The position numbers and the translations under genes are program-made. Below are positions 10,511 through 44,181 of a stretch of DNA of 44,181 bases, piece by piece. The number at the start of each line of letters is the position of its first letter. The first letter of the stretch is position 1. The DNA is from a virus. The stretch lies in the IMG/VR virus record IMGVR_UViG_3300010042_000004, positions 1 to 44,181 of that record; one strand, given 5' to 3'. Under the pieces are notes generated by a model. That model did not search any database. It saw nothing but the letters and a program-made list of their open reading frames with translations, and was not told the origin of the DNA.

Positions 10511-10537
10511 AAAAAGGCGGCCCACATTGGACCGCCT
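10511..10537 (-). terminator. Rho-independent terminator after the antirepressor gene
   Basis: On the minus strand an AGGCGG/CCGCCT stem (with CC/GG inside) is followed by TTTTT. It separates the antirepressor transcript from the endolysin gene, whose start is 24 nt further on. Confidence 0.8.
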
Positions 10538-10561
10538 TCAGAGAAACAGTGTTCTACGCCT

Positions 10562-11155
10562 TTATGCGGCGGTCGATTTCCCGGATGCGGGCGACGCTGT
10601 TTTCACGCTGTTGAAATCGAGCAAGGAGAACTGACGGTTCTCTTCGATCATCGCAGGGACCATCGGGAGGCCAAACTTGACCCAGAGTTGGCCAGCAGCT
10701 TTAGTCCCGAATGTCTGACGAGCTTCGGTGACGAGGCGAAGCTTATTGTTCTCCGGTTCGTGCGCCTGCTCATGATCCTCGATGACCAACGGCTCTTCCT
10801 GCGCGCCCTTGTAAAAGTGCTTGAAGAGGACGCCGTAGCATTCCTCTTGGTAAAGCTGCACGCGGTCACGGGTTTCAACATCTGCGATCCGGCTGCTATC
10901 GATGGTAAAGAGCCAACCATTGACCTTATCCATCTTGAGGCAGACGGCATCCTGATCGCCGCCAAGGCCGTAGGGTGTGGCCATCATGGCCATACCTTTC
11001 GCCAAGATTGGGTCTCGTTTGACCCGCTTAAGCTGGGCAGACCAGTCGAGCCCCATTGCACGAACGATGGGCTTGAGCGCAACATATACGCCGTCGTCGT
11101 TCTCAAAACCGTAGAGTTCATCGCCACGGAAGTTGACAGTGATTATCTTACCCAT
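10562..11155 (-). CDS. ant: P22-type antirepressor
   Basis: A 197-aa protein. The N-terminal domain (about residues 1-115) matches the phage antirepressor N-terminal family (P22_AR_N). Readable marks are VNFRGDELYGFENDDGVYVA, IVRAMGLDWSAQLKRVKRD, a middle region CLKMDKVNGWLFTIDSSRI and a YQEECYGVLFKHF end. The C-terminal 80 residues are a distinct domain, as in other modular antirepressors. Such proteins bind and inactivate CI-type repressors. I chose 11155 because of GAAAGG upstream; a frame opening at 11233 lies inside the structured leader. Between late genes and with its own terminator, it resembles the immI locus of P22. A LexA-type box lies at its predicted promoter. Confidence 0.85.
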   Translation of the reverse strand: MGKIITVNFRGDELYGFENDDGVYVALKPIVRAMGLDWSAQLKRVKRDPILAKGMAMMATPYGLGGDQDAVCLKMDKVNGWLFTIDSSRIADVETRDRVQLYQEECYGVLFKHFYKGAQEEPLVIEDHEQAHEPENNKLRLVTEARQTFGTKAAGQLWVKFGLPMVPAMIEENRQFSLLDFNSVKTASPASGKSTAA

Positions 11156-11175
11156 GGTAAGACCTTTCTCGTTTC

Positions 11176-11272
11176 CGGTCCTCTCCAAAGGACCGAGGAC
11201 AATGCGAGTGCGGCGGCTTTCCCCGGTGTCCAATCAGAGAAGCCGCCCCACCCACCCGCGTTGGAGCGCGGG
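11176..11272 (-). promoter_or_regulatory. Structured leader of the antirepressor mRNA: three hairpins
   Basis: Between the predicted promoter and the ATG at 11155 there are three exact stems: CGGTCC/GGACCG (11176-11195, loop 8), GGCGGCTT/AAGCCGCC (11212-11247, loop 20) and CCCGCG/CGCGGG (11255-11272, loop 6). None ends in a T run. About 200 nt of leader for one gene is unusual in this compact genome and suggests control after transcription starts. Confidence 0.5.
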
Positions 11273-11358
11273 CAATCCACGAGCGACGTGGAATTCCAGT
11301 ATTTTAAGGATATTCGCGCAATCACGCACGTTCAGCGCGGCGCTTATCCACGGTGATC

Positions 11359-11383
11359 TGGGGAAAAGGCACGGTTTTCCCCA
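11359..11383. promoter_or_regulatory. Perfect 9-7-9 palindrome downstream of the ant promoter
   Basis: TGGGGAAAA (11359-11367) and TTTTCCCCA (11375-11383) are exact inverted repeats around GGCACGG. The element starts just after the predicted -10 of the antirepressor promoter, so it covers the likely transcription start. It could be a repressor operator or an RNA hairpin at the 5' end of the mRNA. Confidence 0.5.
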
Positions 11384-11384
11384 T

Positions 11385-11399
11385 GTTCATATTGCGTTC
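11385..11399. promoter_or_regulatory. LexA-type SOS box (GTTC-N7-GTTC)
   Basis: GTTCATATTGCGTTC fits the direct-repeat box GTTC-N7-GTTC bound by LexA in many alphaproteobacteria. It overlaps the predicted -10 region of the antirepressor promoter on the minus strand. Eight fixed bases would occur by chance about once in a genome of this size, so the position rather than the motif alone carries the weight. Confidence 0.55.
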
Positions 11400-11412
11400 T
11401 GATTTTTGACAA
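11386..11412 (-). promoter_or_regulatory. Predicted antirepressor promoter
   Basis: On the minus strand TTGTCA (11412-11407, five of six to TTGACA) is followed after 15 nt by TATGAA (11391-11386, four of six to TATAAT). The spacer is short, so the exact -10 is uncertain. The site directly follows the terminator of the upstream hydrolase gene, so the antirepressor needs a promoter about here. Confidence 0.35.
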
Positions 11413-11413
11413 G

Positions 11414-11434
11414 AAAAAACCCGCCGAAGCGGGG
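11414..11434 (-). terminator. Rho-independent terminator after the hydrolase gene
   Basis: On the minus strand CCCGC-TTCG-GCGGG is followed by TTTTTT. The UUCG tetraloop makes it a strong terminator. It ends the transcript of the alpha/beta hydrolase and probably of the late operon. Confidence 0.88.
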
Positions 11435-12185: not shown

Positions 12186-13796
12186 TTACAGGATCAAATG
12201 ATCCGCCGCGCCCCGCACTGAAATGCTTGTGCTGAAGCTGCTGACGGCATTTGCCCAGTCGATGCTACCGGAGCCACTCCTCCCGATGGCATTAGAGCCC
12301 ACACTTCCGCCAAACAGAGATCCCCGCGCGAACGTAGGGCCTGGTTGAGGGCTCCATCCGCGCACCCGCCCATTATAGTCTTGGTAGTAGTTCGGATTGA
12401 TCTGCGGCGCTGTCTGCGCCCCTCCGGTGTATGCTCCGTTGTACGTGTGACCGATGAGGTCTTGACCCCACACGTAATGGTTGGCGATCGATAGGTTTAG
12501 CCCCCAGAGTGAGGTGTAGCGCTCGTCATTGTTGGTGCCGCCGCCGTTGTTGTTGAAATTGATGCCGGTCTGTACAGCCGCATTTGCCCGTCCGCCGGCG
12601 GCTTCCTCGATGACGCCAAAAGCCGCAGTGCGGAACTCGGGATGCCGCATCATCCGCTTGCCATGGCTATCGAGTATTTCGTTGGACCAGAACCAATCGA
12701 GCTCTGTTACCAGAGTGGTCCCGTCGCCTCCAAAGAGCAGGGGAAGCTTGGGCTTTACGACGCCAGTAGCGATAGTTGCGCCCATGCGGCTGGTGCCGTT
12801 CAGATGGTGATCAACTCCGGTGAAATAGATGTCAGCCCAGAATTTGCCAGCTACCAGCGTCATGCCGCGGGGGTCGGGGCATTTGGGGCGAAACTGTAGA
12901 TCCCAGATAGAAAAAGCATTTATCTGAGGGGTGCGGTTCCCGCCGGTGTTGTAGGCCGTGGCATTGGAACCAGGAGCAAAATGGAATCCGCCGATCCACG
13001 TCCATACTCCGCCGACAGGCTGGGTTGGCGCAACGCCAGTATTGGCGCTCCATGCAACTGCTTGGATGGCGCCCGCAGTGGAAACAAAAATCGCATAGTC
13101 TGTGCCTGCAACCAGCGTCGGCATAGTAATGGCCGTATCGCTTGCAAAGTGCACGAGCACAGTTCCGACCTTAACGACCGTCCCTGCCTTTACGGATGCA
13201 GTGCCGATGCCTGTTCGGGTAAATGCAACGCTGAGCGCATCCGCCTTGGCCATCACAGGAGTGGCAATCGTCAGCGCCGTGTTGAGCTTTGCGAGCGTCA
13301 CAGACCCATCGGCGGGCGCAGCGCCATCGGCCCAAATCACATCATTGTTGGTATTACTGGCCTTGGCCAAGACCTGTCCCGTGGTGCCGCCCGTAGGCAC
13401 TGCCCGCGCGATCGGCGTCCATGCGCTCGTGTTTTGGGCCGCCATCGTGCCTAGTGATGGCTTGCCAGACAAATCAGCATACGCGCCAGATGTTGCAACG
13501 GTCGCCAGGTCGACCGGCTGGGTAGCGCTATCGGCAAGGTCGCCTTGGGCCGCCGAGGCGAAGCGAACATCACCTTGAGCAATAATTGCCTGCTTTGTTG
13601 TCAACGGGCTCATGGTGTCGGTAGCGCTTATGCCAGCCTCGCCACTTGCTTGGCTTGCAAAGGGTCGCGCAGCAGCAACGCCAGCAGACCAGGTGACACC
13701 CCCCACGATGGAGCCGTTGTCGGATGGGACAATCTCGCTCGCGACCGGGTTGGGTCGTGCTGGCAGATTGGATGGACGAATGATTTCGCCGGCCAT
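12186..13796 (-). CDS. Tail fibre or receptor-binding protein
   Basis: A 536-aa protein with a modular build. The first 150 residues resemble fibre shaft/attachment sequences (repeated GDVRFASAAQGDLADSATQ and GAYADLSGKPSLGT segments, the latter a well-known phage fibre motif). Residues 150-250 are Thr/Val/Ala-rich beta repeats. The C-terminal half is Asn/Gly-rich with many aromatic residues (NFNNNGGGTNNDERYTSLWG), as in receptor-binding heads. GAGG precedes the ATG. It follows the collar-like gene by 9 nt, so the two probably act together at the tail tip. Confidence 0.8.
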   Translation of the reverse strand: MAGEIIRPSNLPARPNPVASEIVPSDNGSIVGGVTWSAGVAAARPFASQASGEAGISATDTMSPLTTKQAIIAQGDVRFASAAQGDLADSATQPVDLATVATSGAYADLSGKPSLGTMAAQNTSAWTPIARAVPTGGTTGQVLAKASNTNNDVIWADGAAPADGSVTLAKLNTALTIATPVMAKADALSVAFTRTGIGTASVKAGTVVKVGTVLVHFASDTAITMPTLVAGTDYAIFVSTAGAIQAVAWSANTGVAPTQPVGGVWTWIGGFHFAPGSNATAYNTGGNRTPQINAFSIWDLQFRPKCPDPRGMTLVAGKFWADIYFTGVDHHLNGTSRMGATIATGVVKPKLPLLFGGDGTTLVTELDWFWSNEILDSHGKRMMRHPEFRTAAFGVIEEAAGGRANAAVQTGINFNNNGGGTNNDERYTSLWGLNLSIANHYVWGQDLIGHTYNGAYTGGAQTAPQINPNYYQDYNGRVRGWSPQPGPTFARGSLFGGSVGSNAIGRSGSGSIDWANAVSSFSTSISVRGAADHLIL

Positions 13797-33968: not shown

Positions 33969-34523
33969 TTACGCTGCCTCTGCCCACTCGGCTTTGATGG
34001 TTACGGGCGTCAATTCCCCAAAAACCCTGATAAGCGCCTCTAGCTTGCCCTTCGCGGTGACGTTGGTAACCTCTGCCATGAACTCCGCAAACGGCCCTTC
34101 TGTCACCCGGATGGTCGCGCCAGTGGGGAATTTCATGCGCACGGTGTCTCGCTTGTTCTTCCCGATCTCGCCGCGACGGATTTTTCCGGCCCGCGTGGTG
34201 TCGAATTGCAGATCAGCCTCGGCCGCCATGACTTCGCGGAGGGCGCGCTCCTCAAGGCCATGGAGACGGCATGGGCAGCCTTCGGAGCCCAAGACACTCT
34301 CTACCCCCTCACAGGCCCGGAGAACGAACCACGGGACCGCGCCAGTCGTTTCCACGAACAGATAGCGCGGCATGAGTCGAAGCTCTGTTTCGATCCACAC
34401 CTTGCGGCGCTTGTTGAAGCGCTCGATCCGCGCCAGTGGGGCATAGGTCGAGAACCCGGCCCGGCGAAGATTCCGCTCTGCCTTCTGCTCGCTTTTGATA
34501 TTTGTACGAACTACAAACCACAT
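33969..34523 (-). CDS. NusG/RfaH-like transcription antiterminator
   Basis: A 184-aa protein. Residues 1-110 form an NGN domain: MWFVVRTNIKSEQKAERNLR, GFSTYAPLARIE and LMPRYLFVE, with the conserved aromatic and Arg positions. The C-terminal part has a KOW segment: GATIRVTEGPFAEFMAEVTNV. Length and order fit NusG paralogues. These bind the RNA-polymerase clamp and reduce pausing or termination. It lies at the end of the leftward early operon with the late operon just downstream on the same strand, so it may allow read-through of the several terminators in the late operon. Confidence 0.9.
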   Translation of the reverse strand: MWFVVRTNIKSEQKAERNLRRAGFSTYAPLARIERFNKRRKVWIETELRLMPRYLFVETTGAVPWFVLRACEGVESVLGSEGCPCRLHGLEERALREVMAAEADLQFDTTRAGKIRRGEIGKNKRDTVRMKFPTGATIRVTEGPFAEFMAEVTNVTAKGKLEALIRVFGELTPVTIKAEWAEAA

Positions 34524-38234: not shown

Positions 38235-38413
38235 GCGCACACCGTCTGAAAGGCCGCGAGCCATGCAGCCCAAGCCTTTCCCGCAAGAATACCGTGCTTT
38301 ATGTCGCCGCTGCGCTGGGCCACACCTTGCGCCTGGCGATAGTTGTCCCAAAGCGCCTGAAGAGTATCGTCACGCCGCTCTTGAGCCTGCTTAAACAAGA
38401 TCAGGTCACCCAT
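38231..38413 (-). CDS. Small hypothetical protein between helicase and DnaA-like gene
   Basis: A 60-aa helical protein (LILFKQAQERRDDTLQALWD, AGKAWAAWLAAFQ). It overlaps its neighbours by 8 and 4 bp, so it is co-translated. Similar tiny genes in this place are common in phages of this kind. Function unknown; a helicase-associated role is a guess from position. Confidence 0.6.
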   Translation of the reverse strand: MGDLILFKQAQERRDDTLQALWDNYRQAQGVAQRSGDIKHGILAGKAWAAWLAAFQTVCA

Positions 38414-38894
38414 TCTGACGCTCCATGGTGGAGGTTTTCGCGCGCTGCTTGGCCTCAACCCATTCGTGGATATCGACCAGCTTCCGACGCGCATTGAGCT
38501 TCTTGAGCGCGTGCAAAATCGACGTGTGGTTCATTCCGAAGAAGCCCGCGACTTGCGGCATGCTGTTCTGTGTGTGCTGATAGATGAGCGCCATGGCGTA
38601 GTGCCGCGCTGCAACGACCTCGACATTGCGGGAATCGCTGCAAATGCTGCGTTTTCCGATGCCATGCTTTGCTGATGCGAGCGCGAGCAGGAAACGCCAG
38701 GATGATCCGCCAAGCATATTGAGCGGAGCACCGTGCGGCGCATTCTCTGCCTCGTCGCACTCTTCATCGGGCTCGACATACAGCGGATCGATCTCGACAG
38801 CCGCCGGCGCTGCCAATGCCATAACAACCTTGGCGCCATAGAGACGCGATCGCACGCCAGCGTAATGGTCGAGCAGATTGAGGGTGTAGCTCAT
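38406..38894 (-). CDS. DnaA domain-IV-like DNA-binding protein
   Basis: A 162-aa protein. The C-terminal 70 residues match the DNA-binding domain of DnaA: VVAARHYAMALIYQHTQNSM, then GFFGMNHTSILHALKKLN in the place of the DnaA signature (G-R-D-H-T-T-V-L-H-A). The N-terminal half is an acidic spacer. There is no AAA+ domain. It may bind DnaA boxes or the phage origin and steer DnaB loading. It precedes the helicase gene in the operon. Confidence 0.82.
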   Translation of the reverse strand: MSYTLNLLDHYAGVRSRLYGAKVVMALAAPAAVEIDPLYVEPDEECDEAENAPHGAPLNMLGGSSWRFLLALASAKHGIGKRSICSDSRNVEVVAARHYAMALIYQHTQNSMPQVAGFFGMNHTSILHALKKLNARRKLVDIHEWVEAKQRAKTSTMERQNG

Positions 38895-40031: not shown

Positions 40032-40371
40032 CCGAGCCAAACGAGCCCGGCGAATGAGCGGAAAGAAACGCTGCCAGACGTTCCTCACGGGCTTGGATGC
40101 GTTGTCGTTCAATTCGGGCCTCCTCCACAGCAATCGCCGTAAGATCCTGGATTTCGTAGTGGTCGACGCGGCGTGCTTCTTGAAACCAGAGGGCCTTGAC
40201 GCGCCGCTCAGTCCATTGCCGTTGACGCGTCCGCAGCACGTCTTTAGGCAGCTTGCGCTCACGCCTCTTGAGGGCTTCGAACGCCTCCCCTATCGCGGCC
40301 TGCACGTTGCGGCCGGCGCGGGTGGGAAAAGTTTCATGGATAAGCTCGGAGGCAAAAGCGGCATCAGTCAT
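39958..40371 (-). CDS. Hypothetical charged helical early protein
   Basis: A 137-aa very basic helical protein (EAFEALKRRERKLPKDVLRTRQ in part, then EEARIERQRIQAREERL), preceded by TDAAFASELIHETFPTRAG. I use ATG 40371; upstream ATGs at 40446 and 40461 are possible. The last 30 residues (GSFGSDGEYPGG) look less protein-like than the overlapping frame that ends at 39870. Function unknown; DNA binding is possible from its charge. Confidence 0.5.
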   Translation of the reverse strand: MTDAAFASELIHETFPTRAGRNVQAAIGEAFEALKRRERKLPKDVLRTRQRQWTERRVKALWFQEARRVDHYEIQDLTAIAVEEARIERQRIQAREERLAAFLSAHSPGSFGSDGEYPGGQSVGLDMPRTGAEKRDR

Positions 40372-40804
40372 GGGAGCGCTCTCTGGTGCGGATTTTTCCG
40401 CATTCTTGGATAAAAATTCCACGGCCTTGGAAACCCTTGCTGGCATTAATTGAACCAGCACGAGAACAGGCTTTGGAAAGGCTTAGATGATGGATTTCGG
40501 AGATAGCGAGTTGAGACGCCGCCTTGTCTCCGAGGGATTGCGCAATGGATCGGCGGGAACCGAGACGACGCGCGGAATTGGTGATGGCGGGACCGCTGGC
40601 AAAAGCGATCCGCGCCACCAACCGGCTGGCGAGGGAGGAGAACGCCAACCGATGGGTATGAGGCAGGGCACGATACGCAAGACGCGCGTGCCCTTCCTGA
40701 TGCTCATCATTGGGGGCAAGCGATGACGACCGTGCAGAAAGGCTGGCCCTGGAAAGGCCAGTTGCCACGGCGGCATAATTGGATGGACAATATTCGGGTG
40801 CCAT
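40364..40804 (-). CDS. Uncertain frame in a gap of the early operon
   Basis: A 146-aa frame whose ATG overlaps the stop of the wHTH gene (TGATG) and whose stop overlaps the next start. The linkage is good, but the product is Ser/Arg/Ala-rich and does not look folded. On the plus strand a 38-aa frame at 40545-40661 (GAGGG upstream; MAGPLAKAIRATNRLA inside) looks more natural. The region may hold either or none. Confidence 0.25.
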   Translation of the reverse strand: MAPEYCPSNYAAVATGLSRASLSARSSSLAPNDEHQEGHARLAYRALPHTHRLAFSSLASRLVARIAFASGPAITNSARRLGSRRSIAQSLGDKAASQLAISEIHHLSLSKACSRAGSINASKGFQGRGIFIQECGKIRTRERSHD

Positions 40805-41127
40805 CACGCCGCCTTCCTGTCGCCGGTCAGTGCGAGGCAATACCCCTCACCCCAGACGCTACGGACGCGGTATCCGGTTCCGACCAACTTCTTGTTGAGC
40901 CGATGCACGAAAACTTTGATGAGATTATCAGCCGTCATCGGGCCGCCGTCAGGATCGCCGCCCCACATATGGCTGATGATACCGCCATGCGTGACGGTCC
41001 GCCCGTTGGACGCCGCAACGGCAAGGAAGATCGCCGCCTCGCTTCGGGTGAGGCGAGCGGATTTCGCCACCTCGTCAAATAGGTCGGGAAGTATCTGCCC
41101 GCAGCACTCGCAAACCTTCGGGGCCAT
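40804..41127 (-). CDS. Winged-helix regulator (OmpR-type DNA-binding domain)
   Basis: A 107-aa protein. N-terminal CECCGQILPDL gives a small Cys motif. Residues 25-103 form an OmpR/PhoB-type winged helix: LTRSEAAIFLAVAASNGRTV, ISHMWGGDPDGG, NLIKVFVHRLNKKLVGTGYRV and the wing SVWGEGYCLAL. There is no receiver domain. It probably acts as a transcription factor of the phage early operon or of a host gene. Coupled to the tiny membrane gene upstream (TGATG). Confidence 0.85.
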   Translation of the reverse strand: MAPKVCECCGQILPDLFDEVAKSARLTRSEAAIFLAVAASNGRTVTHGGIISHMWGGDPDGGPMTADNLIKVFVHRLNKKLVGTGYRVRSVWGEGYCLALTGDRKAA

Positions 41128-41237
41128 CACACAGCCCCCATGACAAGGACAGCGGCCTGAATAGCGCAGTAGGCGGTGCCGATGATCAGACCGGCACCAA
41201 GCCATGACAGGAGGGCGTATTTGATGCGCTGGGTCAT
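41127..41237 (-). CDS. Very small single-pass membrane protein (36 aa)
   Basis: A 36-aa product: MTQRIKYALLSWLGAGLIIG, then TAYCAIQAAVLVMGAV. It is almost all one long hydrophobic stretch (two short helices possible). GGGAG precedes the ATG by 7 nt. Start and stop overlap both neighbours (TAATG and TGATG). It is too short for most gene finders. Function unknown. Confidence 0.55.
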   Translation of the reverse strand: MTQRIKYALLSWLGAGLIIGTAYCAIQAAVLVMGAV

Positions 41238-41341
41238 TACCATGCTCCCGTTGCAAGCCATGCGCCGAGAAGGACGCCAGCCGATAGCCAGAGGAACCAT
41301 GCGAAGTCAGAGAGTGCTTTGGTGGAGCGGGTCGGGCTCAT
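41237..41341 (-). CDS. Very small single-pass membrane protein (34 aa)
   Basis: A 34-aa product: polar MSPTRSTKALSDFA, then WFLWLSAGVLLGAWLATGAW as one helix. GGAGG precedes the ATG by 8 nt. It overlaps the GapR gene by 4 bp, and its stop overlaps the next start. It forms a pair with the next tiny membrane gene; they may act together. Function unknown. Confidence 0.55.
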   Translation of the reverse strand: MSPTRSTKALSDFAWFLWLSAGVLLGAWLATGAW

Positions 41342-41574
41342 TCTGCAGCCTCCGCTTCGGCAAGATACAGTTCCAAAAGGGCCTCCTGCTCCATGCGCTC
41401 GGCCTTTGGGATTTTCCGCAGACGGACGGCGCGCTTCATGATTTTGGTATCGAGGCCGGAAGACTTGGCCTCTTTGTAAATTTCACCGATGTCAGCCACG
41501 AGCGCGGCTTTTTCTTCCTCCATCCGTTCTATGCGGGCGAAGTAGGAGCGCAGTTGTCCATTCCCCTCGGTCAT
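41338..41574 (-). CDS. gapR: GapR-like nucleoid protein (DUF2312)
   Basis: A 78-aa protein matching GapR/DUF2312 throughout: QLRSYFARIERMEEEKAALV, DIGEIYKEAKSSGLDTKIM and KRAVRLRKIPKAERMEQEAL. In Caulobacter, GapR is an essential nucleoid protein that clamps AT-rich, overtwisted DNA and supports topoisomerases. The family is mainly alphaproteobacterial, which supports the host group. In the phage it may help replication or copy the host protein. Confidence 0.9.
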   Translation of the reverse strand: MTEGNGQLRSYFARIERMEEEKAALVADIGEIYKEAKSSGLDTKIMKRAVRLRKIPKAERMEQEALLELYLAEAEAAE

Positions 41575-41577
41575 GGC

Positions 41578-41931
41578 TTAGCCCTCGATTTCGGATTTGC
41601 GAGCAGTGCTTACATCAGCGTTTCCGCGCTTACGGATGGCGGCGGCATCAATGCGATGATTGGAAGCGCGAGCGAGGCACTTTTGGGCTTGCCACTTGGT
41701 GGCAACATCTTGGTCGTACCCAACAGCCAATTGCTCAAGCACTTCGCGCTCATGGTCGTGCCATGCCGCTATGTCCTCGCGCTCCTCTGCCTTCGCGGTA
41801 AGGATGGCGCGGGCGAGCACGACCAAGTAGCCCTCCTCAGTAGCGTCCATGTCGTGCGCAGGCGGGAAGTCATCCCAGCACTTTACAGCCGCTTCCCAAG
41901 CCTCTTGGCTGATATCCTCGGGGCGGCTCAT
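41578..41931 (-). CDS. Hypothetical early protein
   Basis: A 117-aa acidic, helical protein, MSRPEDISQEAWEAAVKCWD, then AIRKRGNADVSTARKSEIEG. The ATG at 41931 overlaps the upstream gene; a frame opening at 42090 has no ribosome site and is antisense-like. Similar 'ISQEAWE-A' openings occur in many phage small proteins. Function unknown. Confidence 0.65.
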   Translation of the reverse strand: MSRPEDISQEAWEAAVKCWDDFPPAHDMDATEEGYLVVLARAILTAKAEEREDIAAWHDHEREVLEQLAVGYDQDVATKWQAQKCLARASNHRIDAAAIRKRGNADVSTARKSEIEG

Positions 41932-42200
41932 GCGTCCTCTCCCACTGGCTGGAATGTCGGGGTAATGGACGCAACGGAAACACGGGTGCAGCCAACGGCA
42001 GCGGCGAAAACCAGCTTGCACTTGCGGGCCTGTTCGTCGGATCCTGACCACGCTTCGGAGCGCTTCTCGGTCAGTTTTGATGCCGACCAATGAAGGTACT
42101 GCCCGCCCTGCATGAGGTAGTATTTTCGCTCTGTCTTGGAGGCGTGTTCTGCTCCACCAGAGAGAGCGCGGGCTTTGGGATGGTCGAAGTTGACGGTCAT
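41928..42200 (-). CDS. Hypothetical early protein
   Basis: A 90-aa protein, second gene after the Cro-like gene. Starts MTVNFDHPKARALSGGAEHA, then KYYLMQGGQYLHWSASKLTE. It overlaps its neighbours by 4 bp. Role unknown. Confidence 0.6.
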   Translation of the reverse strand: MTVNFDHPKARALSGGAEHASKTERKYYLMQGGQYLHWSASKLTEKRSEAWSGSDEQARKCKLVFAAAVGCTRVSVASITPTFQPVGEDA

Positions 42201-42421
42201 GCGGAGGCCTCTGGTGATGGGGCAGCGTCCACGAAAATTCGCGACAGGTCGGGGCGCAGCTCGTGGCGGGAAATGCCCGTTACACGCTCGACATCAACCA
42301 CGCGATCTTCTGGAACCTTCCGCCACTGTGAGATGGCTTGGGAGGAAATGTTGCCGAGGAGCCGGGCCAACTCTGCCGGTCCAAAGCCTGCGGTGCGGAG
42401 ACGTTCAATAGGATCACTCAT
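42197..42421 (-). CDS. Cro-like HTH repressor (YdaS type)
   Basis: A 74-aa protein with an HTH at residues 10-45: RTAGFGPAELARLLGNISSQ, followed by AISQWRKVPEDRV, the recognition-helix signature of YdaS/Cro proteins, and DVERVTGISRHELRPD. It is the first gene of the leftward early operon, opposite the CI-like gene, as lambda cro is to cI. I use ATG 42421, because operator 1 begins 9 bp upstream; the longer frame to 42457 would place the operator inside the gene. Confidence 0.85.
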   Translation of the reverse strand: MSDPIERLRTAGFGPAELARLLGNISSQAISQWRKVPEDRVVDVERVTGISRHELRPDLSRIFVDAAPSPEASA

Positions 42422-42429
42422 GCCCCTAT

Positions 42430-42446
42430 TGAAAGCATATCTTTCA
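42430..42446. promoter_or_regulatory. Immunity operator O1, TGAAAG-N5-CTTTCA
   Basis: TGAAAGCATATCTTTCA is a perfect 6-5-6 palindrome, extended by one pair on each side. It lies just before the Cro-like start and would block the leftward early promoter when repressor binds. Confidence 0.8.
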
Positions 42447-42452
42447 ATGCTT

Positions 42453-42469
42453 GGCAAGCATCTCTTTCA
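42453..42469. promoter_or_regulatory. Immunity operator O2 (imperfect)
   Basis: GGCAAG-CATCT-CTTTCA matches the right half exactly and four of six on the left. Its centre is 23 bp from O1, the spacing typical of lambda operators. It directly abuts the -35 of the repressor promoter, so bound repressor could contact RNA polymerase. The 13-bp inverted pair CTTTCAGTGAAAG (42464-42476) overlaps it. Confidence 0.6.
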
Positions 42470-42498
42470 GTGAAAGCAGCGCGTGTGTCAGCGATAAC
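42470..42498 (+). promoter_or_regulatory. Predicted promoter of the CI-like gene
   Basis: GTGAAA (42470-42475, four of six) and GATAAC (42493-42498, four of six) are 17 nt apart. The transcription start would fall at about 42505-42506, the A of the ATG, so the repressor mRNA would be leaderless as in lambda P-RM. No Shine-Dalgarno sequence precedes the ATG, which agrees. Confidence 0.5.
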
Positions 42499-42505
42499 TG
42501 CATTT

Positions 42506-42928
42506 ATGACCAGCAAGAAACCGCCCGATTTGAAAAGAGCCCAGCGCATTCAAATTTTGCGCGAGCAGGTTCTCGATCTATCGAGCCAGGACGCGTTGGC
42601 CGTCAAAATCGGCGTAAGCCGGGGCGCGGTCGGAAATTGGGAATTGGGTCAGCCTATAGGCGTGAAATACGTAAAGGCCCTAGCTGAGATGTCGGGCGCG
42701 TCTATAGAGTGGATATTGTCAGGGACAGGCCCGACCCCGGAAAAAGCTTCGAATGCTATGTCCGCTATTGATCGGCCTACGACCGCCGACGCTTTGAAGA
42801 TCTACGCGCAGCTTCCAGAAGCGGACAAACGTGAGTTTCTCCAGTTTGTGCTCGGGCTTGTAGATGACGGCCAAATCGGAGCGCCTCCGACAACTGCTCC
42901 GGCGTCAGCCGCAAAAGCGCGAAACTAA
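42506..42928 (+). CDS. CI-like repressor without S24 domain
   Basis: A 140-aa protein. The N-terminal HTH (residues 16-75) is of the HTH_3/CI type: RIQILREQVLDLSSQDALAV, then KIGVSRGAVGNWELGQPIG as the recognition part. Residues 90-120 are a helical segment (TADALKIYAQLPEADKREFL). There is no S24 peptidase Ser/Lys pair, and the protein is too short for one, so RecA-driven self-cleavage is not expected. It should bind TGAAAG-N5-CTTTCA sites and maintain lysogeny. The antirepressor elsewhere in the genome would be the means of induction. Confidence 0.85.
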   Translation: MTSKKPPDLKRAQRIQILREQVLDLSSQDALAVKIGVSRGAVGNWELGQPIGVKYVKALAEMSGASIEWILSGTGPTPEKASNAMSAIDRPTTADALKIYAQLPEADKREFLQFVLGLVDDGQIGAPPTTAPASAAKARN

Positions 42929-42993
42929 ATCGCTCCTCATCCGTTTGCATTATCTGTTCCCCTCTTGTTCCGATTAAGGCACAGTAAGGGTCT

Positions 42994-43143: not shown

Positions 43144-43160
43144 TGAAAGCGATGCTTTCT
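43144..43160. promoter_or_regulatory. Immunity operator O3
   Basis: TGAAAGCGATGCTTTCT matches the 6-5-6 operator at 11 of 12 positions. It lies 34 bp (centre to centre) from O4 at the rightward early promoter. Confidence 0.7.
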
Positions 43161-43162
43161 TT

Positions 43163-43190
43163 TTGCTTGCGGACATCTGAAAGATATGCT
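43163..43190 (+). promoter_or_regulatory. Predicted rightward early promoter
   Basis: TTGCTT (43163-43168) and TATGCT (43185-43190), 16 nt apart. The -10 lies inside operator O4, so repressor binding should exclude RNA polymerase. Transcription would start about 43197, giving a 37-nt leader before the ATG at 43234. Confidence 0.55.
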
Positions 43191-43194
43191 TTCA
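43178..43194. promoter_or_regulatory. Immunity operator O4, TGAAAG-N5-CTTTCA
   Basis: TGAAAGATATGCTTTCA is a perfect copy of the same 6-5-6 palindrome as O1, 748 bp from it. The pair places the rightward early operon and the repressor region under one regulator. Confidence 0.8.
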
Positions 43195-44020: not shown

Positions 44021-44181
44021 ATGGTCAATGCCGAGAACATTCGGAAGGTCGCTGACGCAATCGAGAAGCACTCTCTGCCTGGCGTCGGCTTCAACATGAA
44101 TTATTTCACGGCCTCCGCTTCTGAAAACGACCCGCTCGACAAACTCAAGGTTGTCGGATGCGGCACCATTGCTTGCATCGC
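44021..44181 (+). CDS. Hypothetical early protein, 5' part (continues at position 2)
   Basis: The ATG at 44021 has AGGAG about 8 nt upstream. It encodes MVNAENIRKVADAIEKHSLP and continues over the circular junction to the stop at 346 (127 aa in all). The frame is open back to an ATG at 43898 that overlaps the previous stop; this would add 41 residues rich in Pro and Thr, so the shorter start is preferred. Confidence 0.75.
   Translation, partial: MVNAENIRKVADAIEKHSLPGVGFNMNYFTASASENDPLDKLKVVGCGTIACI
44059..44181. repeat. Direct terminal repeat, right copy
   Basis: Identical to bases 1-123. Removing one copy gives a circle of 44,058 bp. Confidence 0.95.

Follow-up and report, generated by a model that had tools for sequence, protein, structure and literature searches.

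A structured leader RNA and a LexA-type box precede the antirepressor gene of a phage of probable rhizobial hosts, suggesting two layers of silencing

Antisense control of antirepressors has been described in a few enterobacterial phages (P1/P7, P22), and phage 186 (Tum) and podophage SPC32H encode antirepressors controlled by LexA. LexA-controlled antirepressors also occur in the Gifsy prophages (Lemire 2011, PMC3121763), with further cases listed in PMC9437464. In P1, translation at the icd-ant operon is blocked by the C4 RNA (PMC12197685), and C4-type RNAs are already known (PMC2864571; RF01695). In the P1 sequence, which was examined here, C4 sits in the icd-ant leader in the order b'-a'-a2-b2-ribosome-binding site, the b' loop and the a' that follows it being complementary to a2/b2 just before the first gene of the operon. 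Another RNA, sar, silences ant in P22 (PMC12197685), and at IsrK-anrP of Gifsy-1 the mRNA of an antirepressor-like gene is untranslated by default (PMC4825925).

The DNA analyzed here is a phage sequence of 44,181 nucleotides (IMG/VR record IMGVR_UViG_3300010042_000004, whole length; hereafter the window). Its ends, 1-127 and 44055-44181, are identical over about 127 bases, which fits a phage genome that is circular or was assembled as a circle. The host is probably a rhizobial bacterium, relatives pointing to the Hyphomicrobiales. A DNA-level search of the phage collection for the nearest phage relatives found none, and the tail protein and endolysin used as queries gave no useful neighbours, leaving no close kin in which to compare the box described below. 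A tail protein (12186-13796, minus strand) contains a second domain of the Mtd family (PF21916, E=3.1e-16). Elsewhere, a candidate antiterminator of late genes, a NusG-like protein (PF02357, E=2.7e-15), is encoded at 33969-34523 on the minus strand, and a small protein consisting of a DnaA DNA-binding domain only at 38406-38894 on the same strand (PF08299, E=1.8e-13), beside a DnaB-type helicase gene. Between the leftward replication genes and the repressor gene, about 2 kb (40364-42473) hold just overlapping listed open reading frames with no family assignment.

The antirepressor-like gene, ant, occupies 10562-11155 on the minus strand (ATG at 11155) and encodes 197 aa. Its assignment to the P22 type in an initial annotation made from the letters alone is borne out by matches of the N-terminal part of the product to P22_AR_N (PF10547, E=1.4e-28, residues 6-117, 99.8 bits where the gathering cut-off is 30.7) and of the product to PHROG 524 'anti-repressor Ant' (E=4.9e-44), the C-terminal part lying outside the coverage of the P22_AR_N family. 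Homologues of 45-70% identity occur in other phages and prophages. Ant may bind and inactivate the phage repressor. Three of the relatives (L107, L110 and L115) have the ant leader and the C-terminal part of ant in common and diverge strongly at ant residues about 25-110, a pattern that an exchange of the repressor-binding part would produce.

An intrinsic-terminator-like stem (11420-11433, minus strand, T-run at 11410-11419) separates ant from the gene upstream, and another (10513-10539, minus strand) lies 3' of ant, before the endolysin gene. Since terminator-like hairpins flank it on both sides, ant would form a separate transcription unit, located in the late region. Its neighbours are a hydrolase-like gene and the endolysin gene. 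The immI region of P22 (ant, arc, mnt, sar) likewise encodes an Ant with P22_AR_N; in the window, however, no arc or mnt RHH genes accompany ant. Four relatives (L005, L006, L114 and L116) resemble immI more closely, with RHH (Arc/Mnt-like) genes, judged by eye from translations, directly before ant.

Between the LexA-type box reported by the initial annotation and ant lies a conserved feature that this annotation missed, a structured leader RNA of about 145 nt with four hairpins (11153-11297, minus strand). It is matched at 58.6 bits (E=1.2e-17) by a covariance model, R1, built from 13 training sequences with the window among them, and the leader of the window folded as a single sequence reaches z=-4.3. 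All its parts read on the minus strand. Hairpin H1 (11274-11295) contains covarying helix 1; H2 (11255-11272) contains helix 2, with 100% of cells paired, and exposes the loop CTCCAA (11261-11266), here termed b'; H3 (11206-11253) contains helix 3 and carries in its apical loop GGACA (11227-11231), termed a'. A linker 3' of H3 holds TGTCC (11197-11201), target site a, and H4 (11176-11195; helix 4) holds TTGGAG in its loop (11183-11188), target site b. The presumed Shine-Dalgarno sequence of ant, AAAGG (11163-11167), follows about 15 nt 3' of site b. The leader also precedes ant in about 15 other phages and prophages, and the layout of these relatives is H1, H2, H3, short linker, H4 and then the ribosome-binding site directly before ant.

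Over the 13 aligned sequences, 96.3% of the cells are paired and two-sided changes occur at 24 of the 27 pairs; cells with two-sided changes number 98, versus 18-25 in controls with the partners slid by 1-3 columns. The alignment was made by hand to the structure, because MAFFT by itself misaligned the leader, and was padded with N, some loop letters being trimmed; as it was fitted in this manner, the independent evidence consists of the loop complementarities. In the stems, read on the ant-sense strand, G-U exceeds A-C by 8 to 2, which weakly favours a sense RNA.

In each phage genome the leader model hits a single place, which is at ant (the L001 record is duplicated around an N), and the few weak hits on the opposite strand coincide with this same place. 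An insensitive search of 298 Hyphomicrobiales genomes, with ten candidates scored per genome, recovered the known locus only. Three additional hits (L119-L121) were rejected on inspection. Rfam yielded no match to the leader at gathering or permissive thresholds; hits to RsmY, STnc180 and isrK correspond to the terminator hairpin and not to the leader. The leader is kept in all aligned relatives of the non-RHH type and is missing from the four with RHH genes, so distributed that leader RNA and RHH genes look like alternative systems of ant control.

The loop of H2 (b') is complementary to the loop of H4 (b) in 13 of 13 phages, and the loop of H3 (a') to the linker (a) in 12 of 13, L113 having no a'/a match. 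The loop letters change from phage to phage and the match is retained: the b'/b pairs include CTCCAA/TTGGAG (window), CTCTAAA/TTTAGAG, CGCTAA/TTAGCG, TTGCCTA/TAGGCAA and CTGTGA/TCACAG, and the a'/a pairs GGACA/TGTCC (window), TGCACA/TGTGCA, TGGACGC/GCGTCCA, GTGGAAAGC/GCTTTCCAC and TGCTAAAC/GTTTAGCA. Mean match lengths within a phage and across phages are 6.15 and 3.31 bp for H2-H4, and 6.08 and 4.01 bp for H3-linker. No permutation reached the own sum in either test, also with whole hairpins and 100,000 permutations; untrimmed leader sequences were used throughout. Two divergent leaders outside the model have complementary segments as well, L145 with a b'/b match of 6 bp and an a'/a match of 7 bp including G-U, and L136 with the a'/a match only (7 bp). 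The a'/a match of the window itself is just 5 bp, a length with a 10% chance of arising at random when this match is considered by itself. Loops that vary and yet always match look like immunity specificities. We regard this structured leader, with its two antisense-like pairings, as the probable primary lock on ant.

The LexA-type box, GTTCATATTGCGTTC (GTTC-N7-GTTC; GAACGCAATATGAAC on the ant sense strand), is indeed present at 11385-11399, on the minus strand in the sense of ant, with a third, imperfect half-site, AAAC, 7 nt past it (11374-11377). The initial annotation had placed it over a predicted promoter. It does lie upstream of ant, but 230 bp 5' of the ATG, within the 116-bp gap from terminator to leader, and no sigma70-type promoter was found between the upstream terminator and the leader; a second promoter position, immediately 5' of the leader, is equally possible. 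A DnaA-box-like sequence in the same gap (TTATCCACG at 11344) was discarded, being as frequent in the window as expected by chance and without conservation.

A LexA matrix was built from 31 distinct GAAC-N7-GAAC boxes in recA/lexA promoters of Hyphomicrobiales, drawn from relatives of a genome (L088) that has a homologous ant; its training boxes, nearly all GAAC-N7-GAAC on the sense strand, score 12.2-23.7 bits. In the scan with this matrix, one of the checks proposed at the outset, the ant box is the top-scoring site of the window at 16.9 bits, the matrix being that of a host group inferred from relatives. It matches the recA/lexA boxes of Hyphomicrobiales both in sequence and in orientation (GAAC-N7-GAAC, sense strand).

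It is conceivable that the box is a chance match and that ant depends for all of its control on the leader RNA and on a constitutive promoter immediately 5' of H1. The caution that about 1.3 such boxes are expected in the window was correct (1.32, with four found and 3 of 100 shuffles reaching four) and speaks for chance, as do the distance of at least 88 bp between box and H1 and the absence or weakness of the box at roughly half of the leader loci. The box is stronger than that count implied, however: a shuffled 44-kb window contains 0.075 exact boxes scoring 16.5 bits or more. Upstream of related ant genes the half-sites speak against chance as well: scored alone at leader-type loci, they average 8.27 at spacing 7 versus at most 5.95 at 11 control spacings, and at the four RHH-gene loci spacing 7 scores lowest. 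One-mismatch boxes upstream of ant number 19 at spacing 7 versus 5-10 at the other spacings between 4 and 10, and the best matrix scores upstream of the 16 leader-type ant genes stand at 7.3 versus 2.2 (sd 1.0) in shuffled upstream sequence. Three relatives, L097, L108 and L110, have exact boxes within 400 bp upstream of ant, against 0.69 expected across all 24 loci, and each box reads GAAC on the sense strand of ant, the orientation it has in the window. Two p-values, to be taken as guides only since the analysis was made after the fact and the loci are partly related, accompany these counts: P=0.03 for the exact boxes without the window, and p=2.6e-5 (Mann-Whitney) for the best matrix scores upstream of the 16 leader-type ant genes, which exceed those of other 300-bp stretches of the same loci. 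On this evidence, a box arisen by chance seems somewhat unlikely.

Conservation of the box in homologous ant promoters, also asked for in the initial annotation, was thus found in the form of spacing-7 enrichment and of three exact copies, but not as a perfect box in most relatives: only 4 of 21-24 ant loci have one, its distance to the leader varies, and the region around it is not conserved in sequence, whereas the leader layout is strikingly so. Given the matrix rank of the window box and the spacing-7 enrichment upstream of related genes, LexA control of ant is plausible, though it would not be general among relatives.

P1/P7 C4 and the leader of the window are both structured RNAs in the leader of an antirepressor operon, ordered b'-a'-a-b and placed beside a ribosome-binding site. 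As order and place are the same as in P1, a C4-like RNA lock is proposed. The scaffolds differ: in C4 a single outer stem surrounds two hairpins, one with UUCG and one with b', whereas the leader has four consecutive hairpins, the third of which carries a' in its apical loop. The target of C4 is icd-ant and that of the leader would be ant directly; the window combines a P22-type Ant with a LexA-type box, in place of which P1/P7 have a C1 operator. Upstream copies of the type a1/b1 of P1 were not found in the window. The RF01695 model matches neither the window (E up to 10) nor the relatives (E up to 5), while P1 itself is matched at 3.5e-13. With no RF01695 match and another scaffold, homology to C4 is unproven; the leader is proposed to act like C4 but falls outside RF01695 by this test. 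The sar RNA of P22 is also distinct, being a divergent antisense transcript, while the RNA described here is part of the leader and has the same sense as ant. IsrK of Gifsy-1 resembles the leader in being a structured RNA that precedes an antirepressor-like gene and shares its transcript, but the two differ in sequence and structure. In P1 the isrK model has a match upstream of C4; it does not match the leader of the window.

The covariation of the loops would fit pairing in cis and in trans alike. The leader could therefore be read as a folded switch in cis, in which kissing loops H2-H4 and a pseudoknot H3-linker within one molecule gate the ant ribosome-binding site in response to temperature, to a host factor or to folding during transcription, with no trans-acting RNA. 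Both pairings lie and co-vary in one transcript, single-molecule folding is strong, and a CC is conserved immediately 3' of a', all of which agree with such a switch. We nevertheless consider it unlikely, since the loops vary widely among phages, in the manner of immunity specificities, which ligand pockets usually do not, and since P1 uses the same order of elements for silencing in trans.

The repressor that Ant would act upon is encoded at 42506-42928 on the plus strand. This CI-like protein of 140 aa has an HTH only (HTH_3, E=5.5e-6 / Phage_CI_repr) and, as the initial annotation had stated, no S24 domain; Peptidase_S24 (PF00717) has no match across the whole window. Four copies of the palindrome TGAAAGnkATGCTTTC flank the CI gene, forming two presumed operators of TGAAAGATATGCTTTC type at 42430-42469, 5' of the CI gene, and two at 43144-43193, 5' of the rightward early genes. 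No CI operator lies near ant or in its promoter region, making direct control of ant by CI unlikely and calling for another regulator. A second good LexA-type box, GAACAAGAGGGGAAC (42956-42970, 14.2 bits), is located 27 bp past the CI stop codon, about 175 bp ahead of the first early-region operator. Relatives of the repressor have little in common outside the HTH region, and a search for CI homologues in four prophage genomes was empty. The association of the box with a non-cleavable repressor, on which the initial annotation had built its induction switch, holds in the window but appears weak across relatives: L108, which has a box, encodes an S24 repressor in which a Ser and a candidate Lys are present; the repressor of L097, also with a box, is of S24 type but degenerate; and box-less L113 has a short HTH repressor like that of the window.

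Like the window, the Gifsy, 186 and SPC32H systems combine a repressor that apparently does not cleave itself with an antirepressor gene that has a LexA-type box and is located outside the immunity region. The Gifsy antirepressors are small and unrelated to the Ant of the window, the box there is the enterobacterial CTGT-N8-ACAG, and no structured ant leader has been described there. That LexA alone represses ant, damage lifting LexA and Ant then removing a non-cleavable CI with the leader irrelevant, is improbable, as this explanation draws on the quality and spacing-specific enrichment of the box, on a CI without S24 and on the Gifsy precedent (PMC3121763), but leaves unexplained a conserved leader with two co-varying complementarities, found in all aligned non-RHH relatives, whereas most relatives have an imperfect box or none.

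The reading that we favour, with a probability of roughly 0.55, is that an SOS-type promoter and a C4-like RNA lock jointly hold ant off. The gene would be a transcription unit of its own, outside CI control and under two silencing layers. The first would be a promoter within 11299-11414, with the LexA-type box, from which transcription would rise after DNA damage. The second would reside in the transcript itself, which would start with the leader of about 145 nt, H1-H3 presenting b' and a' to sites a and b. The 5' part (H1-H3) is probably processed off and may act in trans on other ant transcripts, and on the ant of a superinfecting phage having the same loops; by pairing with a and b just before the ant ribosome-binding site it would block translation of Ant, as C4 does in P1/P7. 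A burst of transcription in the SOS response, or incoming DNA that is unsilenced, would permit Ant to be made, which would then inactivate the short, apparently non-cleavable CI. The two locks would be compatible if the RNA silences a low leak and not the burst that follows damage.

Several observations count against this combination. In a P1 lysogen, the promoter of C4 is expected to be active. Strong LexA repression of such a promoter would silence the RNA too, so that the logic of LexA-controlled and C4-controlled promoters may be partly opposite. Also against it are the mismatch to RF01695, the small number of perfect boxes, the S24 repressor of L108 and the short a'/a match of the window.

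Beyond the joint silencing of ant, we advance tentatively, as a possibility, that the leader represents a new class of immunity RNA with a non-C4 fold, governing antirepressors of alphaproteobacterial phages, in which interchangeable loop pairs set superinfection specificity and, together with the LexA promoter, lysis would need both damage and escape from the RNA lock. LexA-controlled antirepressors and C4-type RNAs are each known; what appears uncatalogued is this RNA fold in phages of Hyphomicrobiales, neither the fold nor its presence there having been found in Rfam 15 or in the literature searched. In that literature there was also no description of a LexA-controlled antirepressor in an alphaproteobacterial phage, in agreement with the initial annotation. 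If the box works, the window would provide one, with an SOS input layered on an RNA lock. Swapping the loop pairs would test superinfection specificity directly. In Hyphomicrobiales phages, another RNA scaffold with C4 wiring would suggest that immunity of this kind arose repeatedly or diverged beyond recognition.
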